DNA from: a virus | Length of the DNA stretch: 22,150 nt | Virus record (IMG/VR): IMGVR_UViG_3300017773_000167 | Span: 1 to 22,150 of that record | Direction: 5' to 3' (one strand) | Part shown: piece by piece, positions 4,736 through 20,828 of the stretch | How the letters are laid out: each line of letters starts with the position of its first letter | Position numbering within the stretch: the stretch's first letter is position 1 | Translations under genes and position numbers: made by a program | Notes under the pieces: generated by a model | Told to the model about the DNA's origin: nothing | The model's database searches: none | The model's input: only the letters and a program-made list of their open reading frames with translations

Positions 4736-5755
4736 TTACGATATAGCATTAGGAGTGTAATATACAGCTAGTTTAGGGTCTTTCAACGCTACACCAACCA
4801 TATAAGCAACTCTAAAGCGATATGCTTTGTTATCCATAGAATACCATTGCTCAACAGAGTTCTCATCGAAGTCAGTACCTACAACAAAAGCATCTTTTGT
4901 AGTTAGTAAAGCTCTGTGAGTTTCAGCAGCAGCAGTACAACCGTTGATTTCTGCAACATCAGCAGCGATTGCTACATCCCAATCTCTACGTACAATGATA
5001 GGAATACCTCTGTAAGTTAAGTTAGGAACACCGTTAACCATAGCACCGTAACCTGCAGCAGCAAAGCTAGAAGATTCTAAAGTTGAAGCCATATAGTCAT
5101 CAGCGATATCACCTGATACAAAGAATACGTGATTTCCTGCTTCTAATAATTCAGGAGCAGCAGAATCATAAAGACCTTGCATAATTTTAAGACCATTACC
5201 CGCTACTAAAGCAGCATCGTCAGCCTGTGTAGTTAAACCACTATATTCTCTTGTTAATGCAGTTGCACCCGCTTCTTTAGCTACTTGGAAGATACCATCA
5301 TAGATACCGTAGTCAGCATCAGCTTCAGCAACATCTGACAACCATAGTTGACGATTGAAGTCAGCCTTTACGCCTTGTCCGATTAAGTCAAGAAGAATGC
5401 TCTTAACAACAGAACCCTCAACATTATCAAACTCGTGTCCGTCACGCATTAATTGACCTTTCATCTTATTGAAAAGCTCGTTTGCTCTAAACTCAATCTC
5501 AGCTTCTACACGAGAAGGAGTGATTGTAATTGTAGCACCTTTATCTCCACTACTTTCAGCAGAGAAAGCACCGTTTGTGAAAGCCTTTGTAATCTTTCCT
5601 AATTGATTGAACTTGTCAATCACAGTAGTACCTTTAATGTTAGGTAATACTTCCATATATTGCATATAATCCTGACCCATAAAGATAGGTTGGATGATTG
5701 CTCTGTTTACATCATACTGCTCAACAGTTGGTAAACTTGTTAATTCTAAAGCCAT
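4736..5755 (-). CDS. Major capsid protein (HK97-like fold)
   Basis: This 339-aa protein is the shell subunit. The N-terminal 100 residues carry the acidic/hydrophobic arm and a long beta-hairpin-like stretch (E-loop region, about residues 45-100, including FSAESSGDKGATITITPSRV). The A-domain-like part is at about 150-300. The C-terminus (FRVAYMVGVALKDPKLAVYY) is typical of capsid proteins from Bacteroidota phages. The length fits an HK97-type capsid protein without a fused delta domain, consistent with a separate scaffold at the end of the upstream protease gene. The gene lies 17 bases after the protease/scaffold stop and has an A/T-only leader. No proteolytic cleavage site can be assigned by eye. 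Confidence 0.8.
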   Translation of the reverse strand: MALELTSLPTVEQYDVNRAIIQPIFMGQDYMQYMEVLPNIKGTTVIDKFNQLGKITKAFTNGAFSAESSGDKGATITITPSRVEAEIEFRANELFNKMKGQLMRDGHEFDNVEGSVVKSILLDLIGQGVKADFNRQLWLSDVAEADADYGIYDGIFQVAKEAGATALTREYSGLTTQADDAALVAGNGLKIMQGLYDSAAPELLEAGNHVFFVSGDIADDYMASTLESSSFAAAGYGAMVNGVPNLTYRGIPIIVRRDWDVAIAADVAEINGCTAAAETHRALLTTKDAFVVGTDFDENSVEQWYSMDNKAYRFRVAYMVGVALKDPKLAVYYTPNAIS

Positions 5756-5772
5756 ATTATATTATTTATTAA

Positions 5773-6150
5773 TTATTTTAAAATTGATTTAGCAAAAGCA
5801 TCCCAAGCGTTAACTACAACATCACTTTCGTTGATTGCAGGGTCGCTTTCTACTTCTACATTAGTTTCGGTAGCTTCTAATTTTGCTAGTTTTGCTTCCA
5901 TATCAGCAACCTTGTTAGTTAAGTCAGCAATAGTGCCTTCTTTCTCACCAACAAGACCTGCTAATTCTTCTTTTTCTTCACGTAAAGAGTTAGCGTTTTC
6001 TTCTAGCTCTTCTAGCTTATTAACGATAACCTCATTGTCAGAAATAGAAACAGAAACTTCTTCAGCAGGAGTAGAAACATTCTCTCCTTTTACAGCGTTT
6101 AAGATTTCTTCTTTAACACCGTTGAACCAAGTTTTTAATTCTTCAGTCAT
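5773..6150 (-). CDS. Internal in-frame scaffold protein (predicted)
   Basis: Met210 of the protease gene (ATG 6150-6148) would give a 125-aa protein starting MTEELKTWFNGVKEEILNAV that consists of the coiled coil and C-terminal tail only. The 30 bases before this ATG are almost pure A/T and contain AAATAATAATAA. The same string precedes the ATG of the tail tube gene, so this stretch looks like a translation-initiation region embedded in the linker. Lambda C/Nu3 is the known precedent for a scaffold nested in a protease gene. This is a prediction from leader composition and domain boundary, with no direct proof. Confidence 0.55.
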   Translation of the reverse strand: MTEELKTWFNGVKEEILNAVKGENVSTPAEEVSVSISDNEVIVNKLEELEENANSLREEKEELAGLVGEKEGTIADLTNKVADMEAKLAKLEATETNVEVESDPAINESDVVVNAWDAFAKSILK

Positions 6151-6777
6151 TTTAATTGATTTATTATTATTATTTAATTTCAATTTATCATTGACCTCTT
6201 TCTCGTTTACGTTAGTAAATTTAGAAAGGTCAAAAGATGCAGCAACTTTCATAGGAGCAGTAATTGTATCTACAAATCCATATTCCATTGCTTCTTCACT
6301 TGACAACCAAGTTTCCTTATCCATCATATCCGAAAGTTGTTTAGTCGTTAGGCTAGACTTCTTAGAATATATCTCAATAATTTCATTCTTAATTTTGTCA
6401 AGTAAGTCAGCAGTTTTACGCATATCTCCTGCTTCTCCTGCCGATTGTCCAAATGGGTTATGAATCATAAAGAATCCGTTTTCTGACATCTCTATGTTAT
6501 CCCCTGCCATTGCTATGACAGTAGATATAGAAGCAGCCAAGCCTTCAATCTTTATGTTTACATACCCATTGTGAGAACGTAAAGTATTGTAAATAGCTAA
6601 ACCATCAAACACACTACCACCAACAGAGTTGATACGTAATGTGATGTCAGCAGTTCCAACAGCTTTTACTTCCTCTATAAAGTTTTTAGCAGATGTTCCA
6701 TAGTCACCTATCTCATCATAGATAGATATTTCTACGCTATTATCTGCTTTGTTTTCTATTGAATACCATTTGTTCAT
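5773..6777 (-). CDS. ClpP-like prohead protease with C-terminal scaffold domain
   Basis: This 334-aa protein matures the procapsid. Residues about 1-180 are an S14 ClpP-fold serine protease: RINSVGGSVFDGLAIYNTL (48-66), catalytic Ser83 in GLAASIS, His106 in FFMIHNPFG and probable Asp153 in DMMDKETWL, followed by YGFVDTI. After a linker of Asn/Lys (about 195-209), residues 212-305 form a long coiled coil of Glu, Lys and Leu, as in scaffolding proteins. Residues 320-334 are a short C-terminal tail that may bind the capsid protein. An internal in-frame ATG at codon 210 has a strong A/T leader and probably makes a free scaffold. It is followed by the capsid gene and preceded by an unusual TGCGAA-type promoter. 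Confidence 0.9.
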   Translation of the reverse strand: MNKWYSIENKADNSVEISIYDEIGDYGTSAKNFIEEVKAVGTADITLRINSVGGSVFDGLAIYNTLRSHNGYVNIKIEGLAASISTVIAMAGDNIEMSENGFFMIHNPFGQSAGEAGDMRKTADLLDKIKNEIIEIYSKKSSLTTKQLSDMMDKETWLSSEEAMEYGFVDTITAPMKVAASFDLSKFTNVNEKEVNDKLKLNNNNKSIKMTEELKTWFNGVKEEILNAVKGENVSTPAEEVSVSISDNEVIVNKLEELEENANSLREEKEELAGLVGEKEGTIADLTNKVADMEAKLAKLEATETNVEVESDPAINESDVVVNAWDAFAKSILK

Positions 6778-6816
6778 TTTGCAAATTTAATAATTAATAT
6801 ATCATATCTTTCGCAG
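6778..6816 (-). promoter_or_regulatory. TGCGAA-type promoter for the head module
   Basis: The -7 box TAAATTTG (6782-6789) lies four bases before the protease ATG. Exactly 20 bases upstream is TGCGAA (6810-6815), where the usual -33 TTTG would be. The 37-base block 6780-6816 matches 18690-18726 at 31 positions. The TTTG of the -7 box and the next four bases form the palindrome TTTGCAAA (6778-6785). The lack of a normal -33 element suggests an activator or alternative factor. Confidence 0.6.
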
Positions 6817-6827
6817 AAATGGGGTAA

Positions 6828-7145
6828 TCACCTAATATTGTAGTCCTTGTTGAATTTACGCTTGTGCTTATACATAATGTTCTGAATGGTTCTTTCTGAT
6901 ACATCATACTTAATGGATATGTCCATATATGTAAATGTGTAGTTACCATTGTTAGATTCCAATACCTTGTCAAAATCTCTTATTATCATATAATCCCTTA
7001 GCTTTCTTGGCTCGATAAGACCTTTCTCTGATAGATGGTTTAGGACATTCTTTATTCCTGCCTCCTCAGAGTATCGCACCTTGACTTCATTGTATATAAG
7101 CTCTATGAACTCATTGACAATATCGGCACTATTCTGTCTTATCAT
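6828..7145 (-). CDS. Small HTH DNA-binding protein, candidate regulator
   Basis: I place the start at ATG 7145-7143, giving 105 aa (MIRQNSADIVNEFIELIYNE at the N-terminus). A TTG two codons upstream belongs to the -7 promoter box. The N-terminal half is helical. The C-terminal 40 residues (YMDISIKYDVSERTIQNIMY, then KHKRKFNKDY) read as a helix-turn-helix: 'DISIKYDVSERTIQNIMYKH' has the small residue, turn and recognition-helix pattern of Mor-like or terminase-small-like HTH domains. It sits alone between the tape measure and the protease, with its own TTG-N20-TATATTTG promoter, so it is a plausible late regulator, perhaps of the TGCGA promoters nearby. That target is inference. Confidence 0.65.
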   Translation of the reverse strand: MIRQNSADIVNEFIELIYNEVKVRYSEEAGIKNVLNHLSEKGLIEPRKLRDYMIIRDFDKVLESNNGNYTFTYMDISIKYDVSERTIQNIMYKHKRKFNKDYNIR

Positions 7146-7179
7146 ACGCAAATATACTAAAAAGTAGCCTGACTTTCAA
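7146..7179 (-). promoter_or_regulatory. Promoter (TTG-N20-TATATTTG) of the HTH gene
   Basis: TTG at 7177-7179 lies inside the last codons of the tape measure. After exactly 20 bases, TATATTTG (7149-7156) begins directly after the tape measure stop codon. Three bases (CGT) separate it from the ATG at 7145. This is a full match to the Bacteroidota consensus and implies a leaderless or near-leaderless message. Confidence 0.7.
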
Positions 7180-16269: not shown

Positions 16270-17444
16270 TATATGTTGTATTTATGTTTTAAGTAATCTG
16301 ATAATTTTTTCACTTCGTCAACACTAAGTTCTTTTTCAAATATAAGAACCTCTTGTATGTCAACTTTTAAATTTCCAACAGCATCTCTAGCTGTACCTAA
16401 CCTCAATGGGTATAGGTCTTGGAATGCTTCTACATCAAAGTCTGAGTTAGTTTCAACATCAACCAAAGAGCCATTCTCAAAAGACTTTACGCTATGATTT
16501 GTTTTATGCTTTGTAAATCCATTAGCACTAACTTGATTTGCTGCATTTGATGTATATATGTAATCCAACAAATCGTCATCAGTATCTTGTATTTGAGTTC
16601 TCCAATTAAGGTTACCACCCTGTGTTGATATTCTAACAGCGAAGTTTGCCTTTGCAGCATTGTCGTTGTTTTTAGCTATAACGTAACCTGCAAATCCATC
16701 ATAACCCTTAGCTACATAAAATACAGATAGTCCATTATTCAAGCCATCAGCAGTTCCATCAAGCGAATTGTTAACGCAAGTTAAGAAGTCATCAGTTCCG
16801 TCAAAGAATACATAGGGATAGTTGTTAGATGACATCTCGTACTTATACAAAGGCTTCTTAGCTGATGTAGCTTGTTCAAAGTGATTTGCGTTTCCACTTT
16901 GGTCAATCCATTTGTTTACAACCTCATTACCGCCAAAGAACTCCGTTTTAACACCCATATCAGCCTTTAACCAAAGCAAAGGCGTCAATCCCTTAACAAA
17001 TGCTTCGTCAATAGCTAAAAGGCTGTGAGAGAAAGCATTTAAAGTAAAAGTAAGCCTGACTTGTATCAACTTGTCGTTATATAGTTCTTTTTCTCGTTCA
17101 ACTGATATACTGTCAGGACTTAAAATTACCTCTTTATTTGTGTAGCTATCTAACACCCTTTGTAGCCAAGTCAATGCTTCTTGTTCTAATAAGCTAAATA
17201 CTACATCAAGCGAACCTGCTTGGTTTTGGTAGTATGGCTTAACGACTAGGCACTCGAAAGTGTATTCTTCTTGCACATCCCCTTCCGTAGCAGGAAGTTC
17301 AGATGTTGGTGGTAAGACAACAAGTAATGGATAGTCATTGTTGTGATTCTCATTGATTTCATTCTCGTAACCAAAGATGAAGCCACCATTTATCCATTGT
17401 TGCTCAAACCTATCTCTTAATTCTCTAAGTTTAGTAAAACCCAT
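16269..17444 (-). CDS. Tail terminator-like protein fused to a LamG-like domain
   Basis: The 391-aa product has two parts. Residues 1-140 resemble tail terminator/neck proteins of Bacteroidota phages: DYPLLVVLPPTSELP (37-51), YTFECLVVKPYYQNQAGSLD (61-80), an amphipathic helix (VVFSLLEQEALTWLQRVLDS, 81-100) and a final strand (LIQVRLTFTLNAF). Residues about 155-391 form a LamG/concanavalin-like domain with WLKADMGVK, KWIDQSGNANHF, YPYVFFDGTDDFLTC and the family's closing EVLIFEKELSVDEVKKLSDY followed by LKHKYNI. A terminator part ends the tail tube; the LamG part suggests a glycan-binding surface attached near the neck. The fold calls are from pattern. Confidence 0.7.
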   Translation of the reverse strand: MGFTKLRELRDRFEQQWINGGFIFGYENEINENHNNDYPLLVVLPPTSELPATEGDVQEEYTFECLVVKPYYQNQAGSLDVVFSLLEQEALTWLQRVLDSYTNKEVILSPDSISVEREKELYNDKLIQVRLTFTLNAFSHSLLAIDEAFVKGLTPLLWLKADMGVKTEFFGGNEVVNKWIDQSGNANHFEQATSAKKPLYKYEMSSNNYPYVFFDGTDDFLTCVNNSLDGTADGLNNGLSVFYVAKGYDGFAGYVIAKNNDNAAKANFAVRISTQGGNLNWRTQIQDTDDDLLDYIYTSNAANQVSANGFTKHKTNHSVKSFENGSLVDVETNSDFDVEAFQDLYPLRLGTARDAVGNLKVDIQEVLIFEKELSVDEVKKLSDYLKHKYNI

Positions 17445-17734
17445 TATTTTATTTGTTTCCTCTGTTCTTCATTAACAGCTAGTTCATAATCTCCTTTTGC
17501 AGTTTTCCAAGACAGGTATGTCATAACTTTATACAACTTCTCATCTTTTACACTTTGCATAGCATCTTTACCATCTCTAGTAAATACTCCATCAAGTGAT
17601 AGGTCGTATAAGGTATTGAGCCAACCAAATGGCTTCATTATCTTACTTGCCTTCGCTACTGCGATACTTTTTGTTCCGCCATCTCTGAAAAGGTTTTTAT
17701 AACGTTGATTGATGCTAAAGTTCGTTTGTTCAAA
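17444..17734 (-). CDS. Tail chaperone T domain, made by -1 frameshift
   Basis: This frame has no sensible start of its own: the first start-like codon is a TTG at 17752, inside the upstream gene. It continues the upstream reading by a -1 slip at T TTT TTG (17737-17731), giving EQTNFSINQRYKNLFRDGGT and so on to the stop at 17444. The fused product would be about 285 aa (190 from the upstream frame plus 95). The domain is helical and basic. This is the arrangement of lambda G/GT, where the T part recruits the tape measure and the tube protein. It overlaps the end of the upstream gene and joins the next gene by TAATG. Confidence 0.75.
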   Translation of the reverse strand, partial: FEQTNFSINQRYKNLFRDGGTKSIAVAKASKIMKPFGWLNTLYDLSLDGVFTRDGKDAMQSVKDEKLYKVMTYLSWKTAKGDYELAVNEEQRKQIK

Positions 17735-18300
17735 AAAAAACTGAACTCCCAAACGATGTCCATTGTCAATCTACGAAATGCTTTCGCCTTTTCATCAATA
17801 TTGTCGAGGTCAACCTCCTCATCCACTTGTTTACACAATATTGCCATTTGTTCGGGTAAAATATCAAATCTACCGTTCTTTAGGTATTGTGTGTTCATCT
17901 CAAGCTGCTGACTCTCTATATAATCACCAAAAGTGCCTGTTCTAAGGAAATCCATAGGGAAATAGTATATATCACCCTCAAATTCAAAATAGTCCATTCC
18001 TTTTGGCTTGTATTCTTCCATAATCTCGTTAAGGCACTCAATTACTGCCATAACATCTTCCATTGGCACATTTGCCATTACTTTGTCACTAATGCCTGTC
18101 ATATAGATGAATAATTCCTTATACATCTTATTTTCCTGCATTATGTGGTATTTTGTCAAATCATTGTCACTATTTGCTTCTTCTTCTGTGATTTGATACT
18201 TTTTTATTATCTCATACACTCCGCAATAGTAATCAACGGTCATTTCTTCCCACTTGTTAGGAATATTGTATTCTTTGCTATTTATTTCTATATTTAACAT
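17656..18300 (-). CDS. Tail assembly chaperone, G-like
   Basis: This 214-aa, helical, acidic protein starts MLNIEINSKEYNIPNKWEEM. It has a middle helix region (about 90-125, VPMEDVMAVIECLNEIMEEY) and a conserved-looking ILPEQMAILCKQVDEEVDLD near 148-167, ending in FRRLTMDIVWEFSFFLNKR. It resembles the G-type tail assembly chaperones of siphoviruses, which keep the tape measure and tube subunits soluble before assembly. The strongest support is the slippery T TTT TTG just before its end and the in-frame -1 extension. Its start overlaps the 130-aa gene by 7 bases. Confidence 0.7.
   Translation of the reverse strand: MLNIEINSKEYNIPNKWEEMTVDYYCGVYEIIKKYQITEEEANSDNDLTKYHIMQENKMYKELFIYMTGISDKVMANVPMEDVMAVIECLNEIMEEYKPKGMDYFEFEGDIYYFPMDFLRTGTFGDYIESQQLEMNTQYLKNGRFDILPEQMAILCKQVDEEVDLDNIDEKAKAFRRLTMDIVWEFSFFLNKRTLASINVIKTFSEMAEQKVSQ
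17731..17737 (-). promoter_or_regulatory. Programmed -1 frameshift heptamer T TTT TTG
   Basis: On the minus strand a run of nine T followed by G (17740-17731) is read AGT TTT TTT TTG in the upstream gene. The last seven bases are T TTT TTG, which fits the X XXY YYZ slippery rule. A slip to the -1 frame continues for 96 codons including the stop at 17444, while the zero frame ends at 17656. A downstream stimulatory structure was not folded. Confidence 0.75.
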
Positions 18301-18686
18301 TGTTCCATCTCTTTTATTTCTTCTTCATCTTTCATTAAGTCAGATAGACTACCTACGACATCCATTGTGGAACTATATACGTTTCTCACGCAATCCTCAA
18401 TAGCATCATCGTTTTCTTCATTTCTTAATCCTGCAAAGAAGCCTAATGCTGTAAACATTGTTAAATTAGGGATAGCAAATGCCCATTCCTCTAAATTATC
18501 TTTATTTAAGCCCGTATCGGCAAAATCATTGTGATACATTACAATATCTTCAAGTAAGTCCTGAAAATCATCGTATTTACCATCATTAGCAGTTTCAGTA
18601 GCGTTATATACCTGCTTTTGTATATAAGTCAGGTATTTGCTTACCAAAGTGTTGTGTTTGCTGTTTATATGCTTAAATGTATTCAT
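18294..18686 (-). CDS. Unknown 130-aa helical protein upstream of tail chaperone
   Basis: I do not recognise this gene. It encodes 130 aa, mostly helical and acidic, with a basic N-terminus (MNTFKHINSKHNTLVSKYLT) and a hydrophobic, Phe-rich middle at about 68-87 (FAIPNLTMFTALGFFAGLR region) that is too short and mixed for a confident membrane helix. The C-terminus is Glu/Met rich (LMKDEEEIKEMEQC). It is the first gene of the tail module, overlapping the chaperone start by 7 bases. It has its own TGCGAC-type promoter with the -7 box five bases before the ATG. By position it may be a tail assembly factor. Confidence 0.6.
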   Translation of the reverse strand: MNTFKHINSKHNTLVSKYLTYIQKQVYNATETANDGKYDDFQDLLEDIVMYHNDFADTGLNKDNLEEWAFAIPNLTMFTALGFFAGLRNEENDDAIEDCVRNVYSSTMDVVGSLSDLMKDEEEIKEMEQC

Positions 18687-18738
18687 TTGTGCAAAATTAA
18701 TTATTAGTATATGTTATCTGTCGCAGTTTTTGTGCAAA
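18687..18738 (-). promoter_or_regulatory. TGCGAC-type promoter for the tail module, with flanking 10-base repeats
   Basis: The -7 box TAATTTTG (18692-18699) is five bases before the ATG. Exactly 20 bases upstream lies TGCGAC (18720-18725) in place of a -33 TTTG. Block 18690-18726 matches the protease promoter at 31 of 37 bases. The 10-mer TTTGCACAAA occurs twice on the minus strand, at 18686-18695 over the -7 box and at 18729-18738 just upstream of the TGCGAC element, 43 bases apart. They may be operators. Confidence 0.6.
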
Positions 18739-18757
18739 TTTCAATTTTATAGGTCAT

Positions 18758-20588: not shown

Positions 20589-20624
20589 AATACAAAGCTA
20601 AACAAAATAATAGTAATATACAAA
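20589..20624 (-). promoter_or_regulatory. Terminase promoter (TTTG-N20-TAGCTTTG)
   Basis: TTTG at 20621-20624 and TAGCTTTG at 20593-20600 are exactly 20 bases apart on the minus strand, a full match to the Bacteroidota consensus. Four bases (TATT) separate the -7 box from the terS ATG, again implying a leaderless or near-leaderless message. Two repeat arrays lie directly upstream. Confidence 0.75.
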
Positions 20625-20656
20625 TAGCTTTAACCTTAGCTTTATCTTTAGCTTTA
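20625..20656 (-). repeat. Three TAAAGCTA repeats, 12-base period
   Basis: The 8-mer TAGCTTTA (plus strand; TAAAGCTA on the minus strand) occurs at 20625, 20637 and 20649, exactly 12 bases apart, directly upstream of the terminase -33 box. It may be a set of activator sites or an UP-like element. Confidence 0.75.
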
Positions 20657-20662
20657 TTATGT

Positions 20663-20702: not shown

Positions 20703-20794
20703 AATCTATAAAATAGACTTTTAAAATTTTTTTATAATTTTTTTGACCTCTAAAAACACTTTTCTATATATTTTTTACCATTTCGCACTACTTT

Positions 20795-20828
20795 TGCGAA
20801 AGATTATCTTTTATTTTTACTAACTTGC
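20795..20828 (+). promoter_or_regulatory. Degenerate plus-strand TGCGAA-N20 element
   Basis: TGCGAAAGAT (20795-20804) matches the start of the protease promoter element. Twenty bases after TGCGAA comes TAACTTGC, which looks like a -7 box lacking one T. No plus-strand gene follows. It may be a binding site of the same factor rather than a working promoter. Confidence 0.3.

Follow-up and report, generated by a model that had tools for sequence, protein, structure and literature searches.

A conserved -38 box joined to a host-type -7 element defines a putative late promoter class in a clade of phages that probably infect Bacteroidota

Introduction

The locus considered here raises the question of what kind of element stands twice, in closely similar form, in the window, that is, in the whole 22.15 kb virus record analysed, whose long genes lie on the minus strand. 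One 37-base copy precedes a head protease gene and the other a module ending with the tape measure gene, and a sequence-only reading had taken the pair for a phage-specific promoter class that serves the head and tail modules. The gene order is presumed terS (named by position only), terL, a 130-aa gene heading the module that ends with the tape measure, a helix-turn-helix (HTH) gene, the head protease, a capsid-like gene and the portal. Phages of Croceibacter, Chryseobacterium and Cellulophaga are among the phage records that the terminase matches best; judged from the terminase matches and the -7 element, not from metadata, the phage group is probably marine and infects Bacteroidota. The features on which the argument draws are as follows.

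4736..5755, minus strand: structural protein of capsid-like type, encoded after the protease (matches to PHROG 1623, virion structural protein, at E 6.3e-7 and to major head protein at E 0.017)
5773..6777, minus strand: ClpP-type head maturation protease (PHROG 133, E 5.5e-76; CLP_protease), start codon 4 bases past the -7 element, predicted leaderless
6780..6816, minus strand: 37-base copy 1, from sequence comparison
6782..6789, minus strand: -7 element TAAATTTG of the head-protease promoter, matching the Bacteroidota consensus TANNTTTG as quoted in PMC6847099
6812..6815, minus strand: TGCG box (-38 to -35) of the head-protease promoter; 78 of 82 distinct protease promoters, that of the window among them, have TKC at precisely this offset
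6828..7145, minus strand: gene of a 105-aa HTH protein, candidate box factor, directly upstream of copy 1; sole Pfam match below cut-off
7149..7156, minus strand: -7 element of the HTH gene's own promoter, with an ordinary TTG 20 bases upstream
18294..18686, minus strand: 130-aa gene that opens the module ending with the tape measure; its start codon lies 5 bases past the -7 element; no PHROG or Pfam match
18690..18726, minus strand: 37-base copy 2, from sequence comparison
18692..18699, minus strand: -7 element TAATTTTG of the promoter downstream of terL
18722..18725, minus strand: TGCG box (-38 to -35) of the promoter downstream of terL (tail-side module)
18727..18751, minus strand: extra conserved block TATAAAATTGAAATTTGCACAAAAA ahead of copy 2 that may be a second half-site; 16 of 22 distinct upstream regions have it without a change
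20593..20600, minus strand: -7 element before presumed terS, with an ordinary TTTG 20 bases upstream, serving as contrast case

Results

Two similar promoter regions in one window

The minus-strand blocks at 6780-6816 (CTGCGAAAGATATGATATATTAATTATTAAATTTGCA) and 18690-18726 (CTGCGACAGATAACATATACTAATAATTAATTTTGCA) are identical at 31 of 37 positions, in agreement with the sequence-only reading, and no two 37-mers on the same strand of the window, aligned without gaps, agree at more; the best value in eight shuffles that kept local composition is 26-28. Each copy holds TGCGA(A/C), a 20-base gap and then TAAATTTG (copy 1) or TAATTTTG (copy 2), and the fixed spacing attributed to the pair is thus present in both. 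The ATG start codon lies 4 (copy 1) or 5 (copy 2) bases past TTTG and 2 or 3 bases past TTTGCA, so that the distance of four to five bases given earlier holds when counted from TTTG. The exact pattern TGCGAMAGATA-N8-12-TAAWTTTGCA has no match in the window because the true gap is longer, and the copy pair is absent among the 20 repeat families listed by a direct repeat finder. The promoters of presumed terS and of the HTH gene have TTTG or TTG 20 bases before the -7 element, as had been said of ordinary promoters in the window. About 190 bases upstream of presumed terS, at 20780-20802, stands an inverted repeat (TTTCGCA-N7-TGCGAAA) that contains the same TGCGAA word and might be an operator; it has no -7 element at the right distance.

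A fixed geometry across the clade

Profile and single-protein scans of IMG/VR yielded at least about 400 loci (best 80 per scan), often from shared contigs, and 41 IMG/VR contigs were compared together with the window. Among these 42 contigs, which are related and whose counts are hence not independent, TKC followed after 23 bases by a -7 element with at most one mismatch was found in 41 of 42 protease regions (shuffled mean 0.70, maximum 3, 200 rounds) and just after terL in 38 of 39 regions (shuffled mean 0.63, maximum 4, 200 rounds), the latter region being missing in three contigs. When spacers of 12-33 bases were tested, 23 alone reached such counts, and the next best, 33, is ten bases longer (17 protease and 7 terL-downstream regions). 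The protease site of G028 (TTCA) lies outside the searched stretch, and the terL-downstream site of G031 is apparently shortened. The fixed geometry is therefore found at both places across the clade, and the element is, on sequence evidence, a clade-wide promoter class seen so far in these phages alone.

The motif itself had been described too narrowly. In close relatives the block reads TGCGAAAGATA or TGCGACAGATA, and TGCGAM with AGATA holds there; in more distant relatives the box is reduced to TTCG or TGCG, and then to TTCC, TTCT, TTCA, TGCT or TGCA, and the general element becomes TKC(G)-N22-TAnnTTTG. What stays constant is TKC, exactly 23 bases (22 counted from the G) and the -7 element. 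A set of distinct promoters, from which loci were dropped when the protein match began past residue 6 or came within 60 bases of an end, has TKCG at -38 in 36 of 45 protease and 22 of 24 terL-downstream promoters; two promoters have it at an adjacent offset, and it occurs nowhere else within the 45 bases. The -7 element TANNTTTG, present in both window copies, is strict in 42 of these 45 and 15 of these 24; one group includes six contigs whose terL-downstream copy shows one mismatch in the -7 element and stands further from a start codon.

In a wider set of 82 distinct protease promoters, besides TKC at -38 in 78, TKCG is present in 65 and TTG at the ordinary -33 place in none. When the protease promoters were thinned to less than 75% identity, TKC was kept in 19 of 22, and T and C were each fixed in 20 of 22. 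A comparison of box variants by locus covered the 265 of 279 loci in which the HTH gene is followed by a -7 element and ATG. The most distant protease relative (L050, 37%) lacks the box, and in L042, L069 and L071 it is shifted by one base.

The strict pattern TKCG-N22-TANNTTTG gave 28 matches against 4 with the reversed pattern in 20 phage contigs, and 33 against 7 in 24 further phage contigs. Among the former 20 it occurs twice in 10, once in 8 and in 2 not at all. With relaxed box and -7 element, both syntenic places are occupied in 18/18 contigs, with one extra match each in G006 and G007. Of the strict matches in the 24 further contigs, those in G025 and G026, and one each in G041, G035 and G029, lie at other places and look like chance.

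Genes totalling about 1.1-1.7 kb are inserted behind terL, ahead of the 130-aa gene, in six contigs (G021, G022, G024, G025, G006 and G007; loci L513-L516, L519-L522 and L160-L163). In them the TKC promoter stays right after terL, not before the displaced 130-aa gene.

Promoter classes and predicted starts

A census of 161 distinct TAHHTTTG sites before ORFs in 28 near-complete contigs separates the promoters by box and by leader length. Ninety-nine sites have leaders of at least 15 bases and no TKC, and in 62 of these TTG lies 18-21 bases before the -7 element; 38 sites have TKC at -38, with TTG at 18-21 in 1 of the 38 and a leader of 4-6 bases to ATG in 34. The remaining 24 combine a short leader with the absence of TKC. 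TTG at 18-21 is also missing from about a third of leadered promoters (37/99), which speaks against the explanation preferred below.

In Flavobacterium johnsoniae, many transcription starts lie 4-5 bases past the -7 element, and leaders exceed 10 nt in 87% of transcripts with a probable promoter, according to PMC6847099. By this distance, phage mRNAs from TKC promoters would begin at or next to the ATG, and most of them should be leaderless. The presumed terS and HTH genes of the window would be leaderless by the same rule, yet retain the ordinary TTG or TTTG. A leaderless start would thus belong to the promoter class, which adds to its earlier description.

Genes preceded by the box

Eight contigs of one subgroup encode an amidase-like gene, an assignment that rests on the G028 protein (lysis amidase family PHROG 822, E 5.4e-36). 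A strict further copy precedes this gene in five of the eight (G027, G028, G033, G034 and G035) and TGCG-N22 with one -7 mismatch in G029; the remaining two, G030 and G032, have no box upstream of it. Tailed phages express their head, tail and lysis genes late, and the TKC class is therefore most simply a late promoter, a timing suggested by gene content.

Occurrence outside the clade

In five Flavobacteriales genomes that were reached via distant terminase matches and are not known hosts (Polaribacter, Allomuricauda, a Lutibacter bin, a Flavobacteriales bin and Chryseobacterium), the strict pattern gave 99 matches against 157 with the reversed pattern (Polaribacter, 32 against 30). This lack of enrichment makes a general host promoter class unlikely, and that candidate was rejected with the same restriction to genomes that are not known hosts. 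The proposal of a phage-specific class for the head and tail modules is accordingly upheld as regards its place, its fixed geometry over wide divergence, the missing -33 box and the lack of host-genome enrichment; the proposed phage activator, the late timing and the joint firing of the modules, all read from the arrangement of the sites, are weighed below.

The cultured phages P2559Y, PJN03, P2559S and phi17:1 have no site of this geometry beside a start, and three chance-like TKCG-N22 matches. A portal profile search of genome contigs returned no prophage relatives. In a wider viral scan, TTGCG-N22-TANNTTTG-N4-ATGA was found in 73 stretches, with 24 sites before an ORF of at least 40 aa, each the sole such site on its strand of the stretch. 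With the protease sites of the clade itself set aside, two stretches, L239 and L286, show matches to some of its proteins; L239, L262, L279, L287 and L297 show no second copy within their stretches, which are pieces of longer contigs. An unrelated family of 253-aa genes (MKLFKWLMPSAG...; L279, L284, L287 and others) has a single TTTGCG-N22-TATTTTTG-N4-ATG upstream, perhaps a coincidence or a second use of the geometry.

Candidate proteins

Two candidate DNA-binding proteins are each encoded in 28/28 near-complete contigs, namely the 105-aa HTH protein and a 78-aa Cro-like protein of the early region; the other proteins present in all 28 were tested for DNA binding only in part. The Pfam HTH matches of both candidates fall below cut-off, that of the 78-aa protein being of the Cro/C1 type. 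The HTH gene lies upstream of the protease in 42/42 contigs, with the two starts 360-376 bases apart except in one subgroup (417-1831). Its AlphaFold2 model is confident and helical, with an HTH (pLDDT 87), and the solved structures that it matches, at middling Z and without discrimination among them, include Mu C and Mor in polymerase complexes, sigma region 4 and TrpR. To a PHROG annotated as late transcriptional activator the protein shows weak matches (best E 0.0023; 23 of 25 members at E up to 1); the match to this profile, PHROG 836, was rejected as proof of function, the profile also ringing in 14/14 control genomes.

The box itself varies in a manner that bears on its reader. Nine of 12 lineages (75%) have the same base at -35 in both promoters of a genome; between lineages the agreement is 45%, and 79 of 5000 permutations reach the within-genome value, in one of five uncorrected permutation tests on 12 lineages picked from 37 contigs. 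Pairs are T/T in G021, G022 and G024 and A/A in G025, and the G is lost at both promoters in G006 and G007; the covariation is imperfect, with A/G in G027 and G/T in six contigs of the G036-G042 group. It fits a shared trans-acting reader, with G027 and the G036-G042 group in disagreement. A recognition-helix Gln of the HTH protein is changed where G-35 is lost in two lineages (G006/G007 and G025). Against such a pairing, the Gln is kept without G-35 in G021/G022, and likewise in G028 at the protease promoter. The additional half-site further upstream varies from lineage to lineage, without an excess of agreement inside genomes (1006 of 5000 permutations).

Judged on this evidence, the HTH protein at 6828-7145 is the most likely box factor, a designation that we make with somewhat less than even confidence; its gene lies inside the late region, not among the early genes, which is odd for a primary activator. 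The 78-aa Cro-like protein is the next candidate, credible but rather unlikely. Sigma-70 region 2 (PF04542), sought as the sign of a promoter read by a phage-encoded sigma factor, was found in 0/28 contigs, with the control ringing in 10/14 genomes, and single-subunit RNA polymerase (PF00940) likewise in 0/28, but here the control rang nowhere; the host-type -7 element argues against a phage RNA polymerase promoter. A 65-aa HTH protein of the early region (e.g., G005:34169-34366) is present in 21/28 contigs, some with a weak Mor-like match, and absent from G028-G030 and G032-G035, which keep the box.

Discussion

The explanation that we consider best, and on balance probable, is a phage activator bound to the -38 box and working with host sigma-ABfr RNA polymerase at a hybrid late promoter. 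The -7 element TAnnTTTG would be read by host polymerase carrying the primary sigma factor of Bacteroidota, and in place of the usual -33 TTG/TTTG contact, which is missing, a phage-encoded DNA-binding protein would occupy the TKC(G) box at -38 to -35, possibly with a second half-site one helical turn upstream. Placed beside sigma region 4, this protein would recruit or remodel the polymerase, and the promoters would switch on the modules for the head and the tail side, as well as the endolysin in one subgroup. Transcription would begin at the ATG or within one to two bases of it, leaving most such mRNAs leaderless.

The same sites could be read without any phage factor, if the box were a variant -33 element recognized directly by region 4 of the host primary sigma across a longer spacer, in which case the promoters would simply be strong or weak constitutive ones. 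TTTCG is indeed one base away from TTTTG, and no more than 2-3 bases separate it from the ordinary -33 place downstream, and in F. johnsoniae the -33 motif is reported to be much less evident than the -7 element, promoters lacking it being normal in the host phylum (PMC6847099). We nevertheless hold direct reading by sigma to be unlikely: the spacing is fixed at 22, whereas the TTG of leadered promoters lies mostly at 18-21, the C of the box is as fixed as its T across lineages in the thinned set, and the pattern shows no enrichment in the five Flavobacteriales genomes.

More improbable still is that the box serves as operator of a phage repressor, for instance the universal Cro-like protein, silencing late promoters early in infection. 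The presence of the 78-aa protein, with its sub-cut-off Cro/C1-type match, in the early region of 28/28 near-complete contigs and the inverted repeat upstream of presumed terS would suit a repressor. The site, however, replaces the -33 box at a fixed distance from the -7 element, which fits an activator; neither of the two sites is palindromic; and, as the -33 TTG is absent, the promoter would lack a normal contact even when unrepressed. That the similarity reflects a recent duplication, or a DNA-level feature devoid of promoter function such as a packaging or recombination site, is suggested by the two long similar copies that flank the tail-side module in the window, but we regard it as very improbable, given that distant relatives keep TKC(G), spacing and -7 element alike between copies while the rest diverges, the mark of selection on a promoter, and that one subgroup has a further copy before its amidase gene.

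The activator reading finds its closest parallel in T4 middle promoters, in which a MotA box replaces the -35 element and the host -10 element is kept, as described in PMC2988021. Shared with this MotA-dependent sigma appropriation, here by sequence only, are a retained host -10-type element, a phage box that replaces the upstream element at a near-fixed distance and the use of host RNA polymerase (PMC2988021). The box, its spacing, the sigma factor and the host phylum all differ, as do the genes served (structural instead of middle) and the predicted leaderless starts; the MotA DNA-binding domain (PF09158) was found in 0/28 contigs, but no control genome scored over cut-off either. A likeness to the Mor/C-activated middle and late promoters of phage Mu lies in the supposed switch for late genes, a small HTH protein of the phage that would bind immediately upstream of the core promoter. 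The HTH of the candidate superposes on C and Mor in their RNA polymerase complexes (9l0x and 9l0y; Z 5.8 and 5.5), tied with many unrelated HTH proteins. Sequence comparison did not establish homology to Mor/C (hhalign E 0.023, probability 2%, to C; 0.14 to Mor); the Mor/C family PF08765 scored over cut-off in 0/28 contigs and below it in 9/28, two of these in the candidate itself (G032 and G033), and is absent from the Pfam matches of the window HTH protein. With the ordinary Bacteroidota sigma-ABfr promoter (-33 TTTG and -7 TANNTTTG), as presented in PMC6847099, the phage class shares the -7 element and the expected 4-5 bases to the start, and it differs from it in lacking the -33 TTG and in having TKC(G) at -38, one fixed spacing and most predicted starts at the ATG.

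The statement that no element of this form had been described holds for Bacteroidota phages among the matches listed in a search of the open-access literature, which likewise contained no account of late-gene timing in such phages or of a phage-specific activator for Bacteroidota -33/-7 promoters. The HTH protein may be the founder of a family of late activators in Bacteroidota phages, bound to a bipartite box near -37 beside sigma-ABfr region 4, replacing the -33 contact and leading from leadered early to leaderless late mRNAs, with transcription and the mode of translation start changing together; we offer this larger proposal as a doubtful one. One strict geometry across a diverse phage group lends itself to a direct test, the components being a single box, a -7 element of host type and two small candidate proteins. 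If the activator reading is true, it would provide a phage-controlled promoter for Bacteroidota genetics and a late-operon marker in uncultured phages, and it raises the question of why late mRNAs in these phages would be leaderless.

Elsewhere in the window, tandem AAAGCTA/GATAAAG-like repeats at 20595-20660 (minus strand) abut the presumed terS promoter upstream and are also seen in G005, G010, G016, G041 and G043. At 17444-17752 (minus strand), a 102-aa ORF overlaps the end of a 214-aa gene in another frame, as in the frameshift pairs of tail assembly chaperones.
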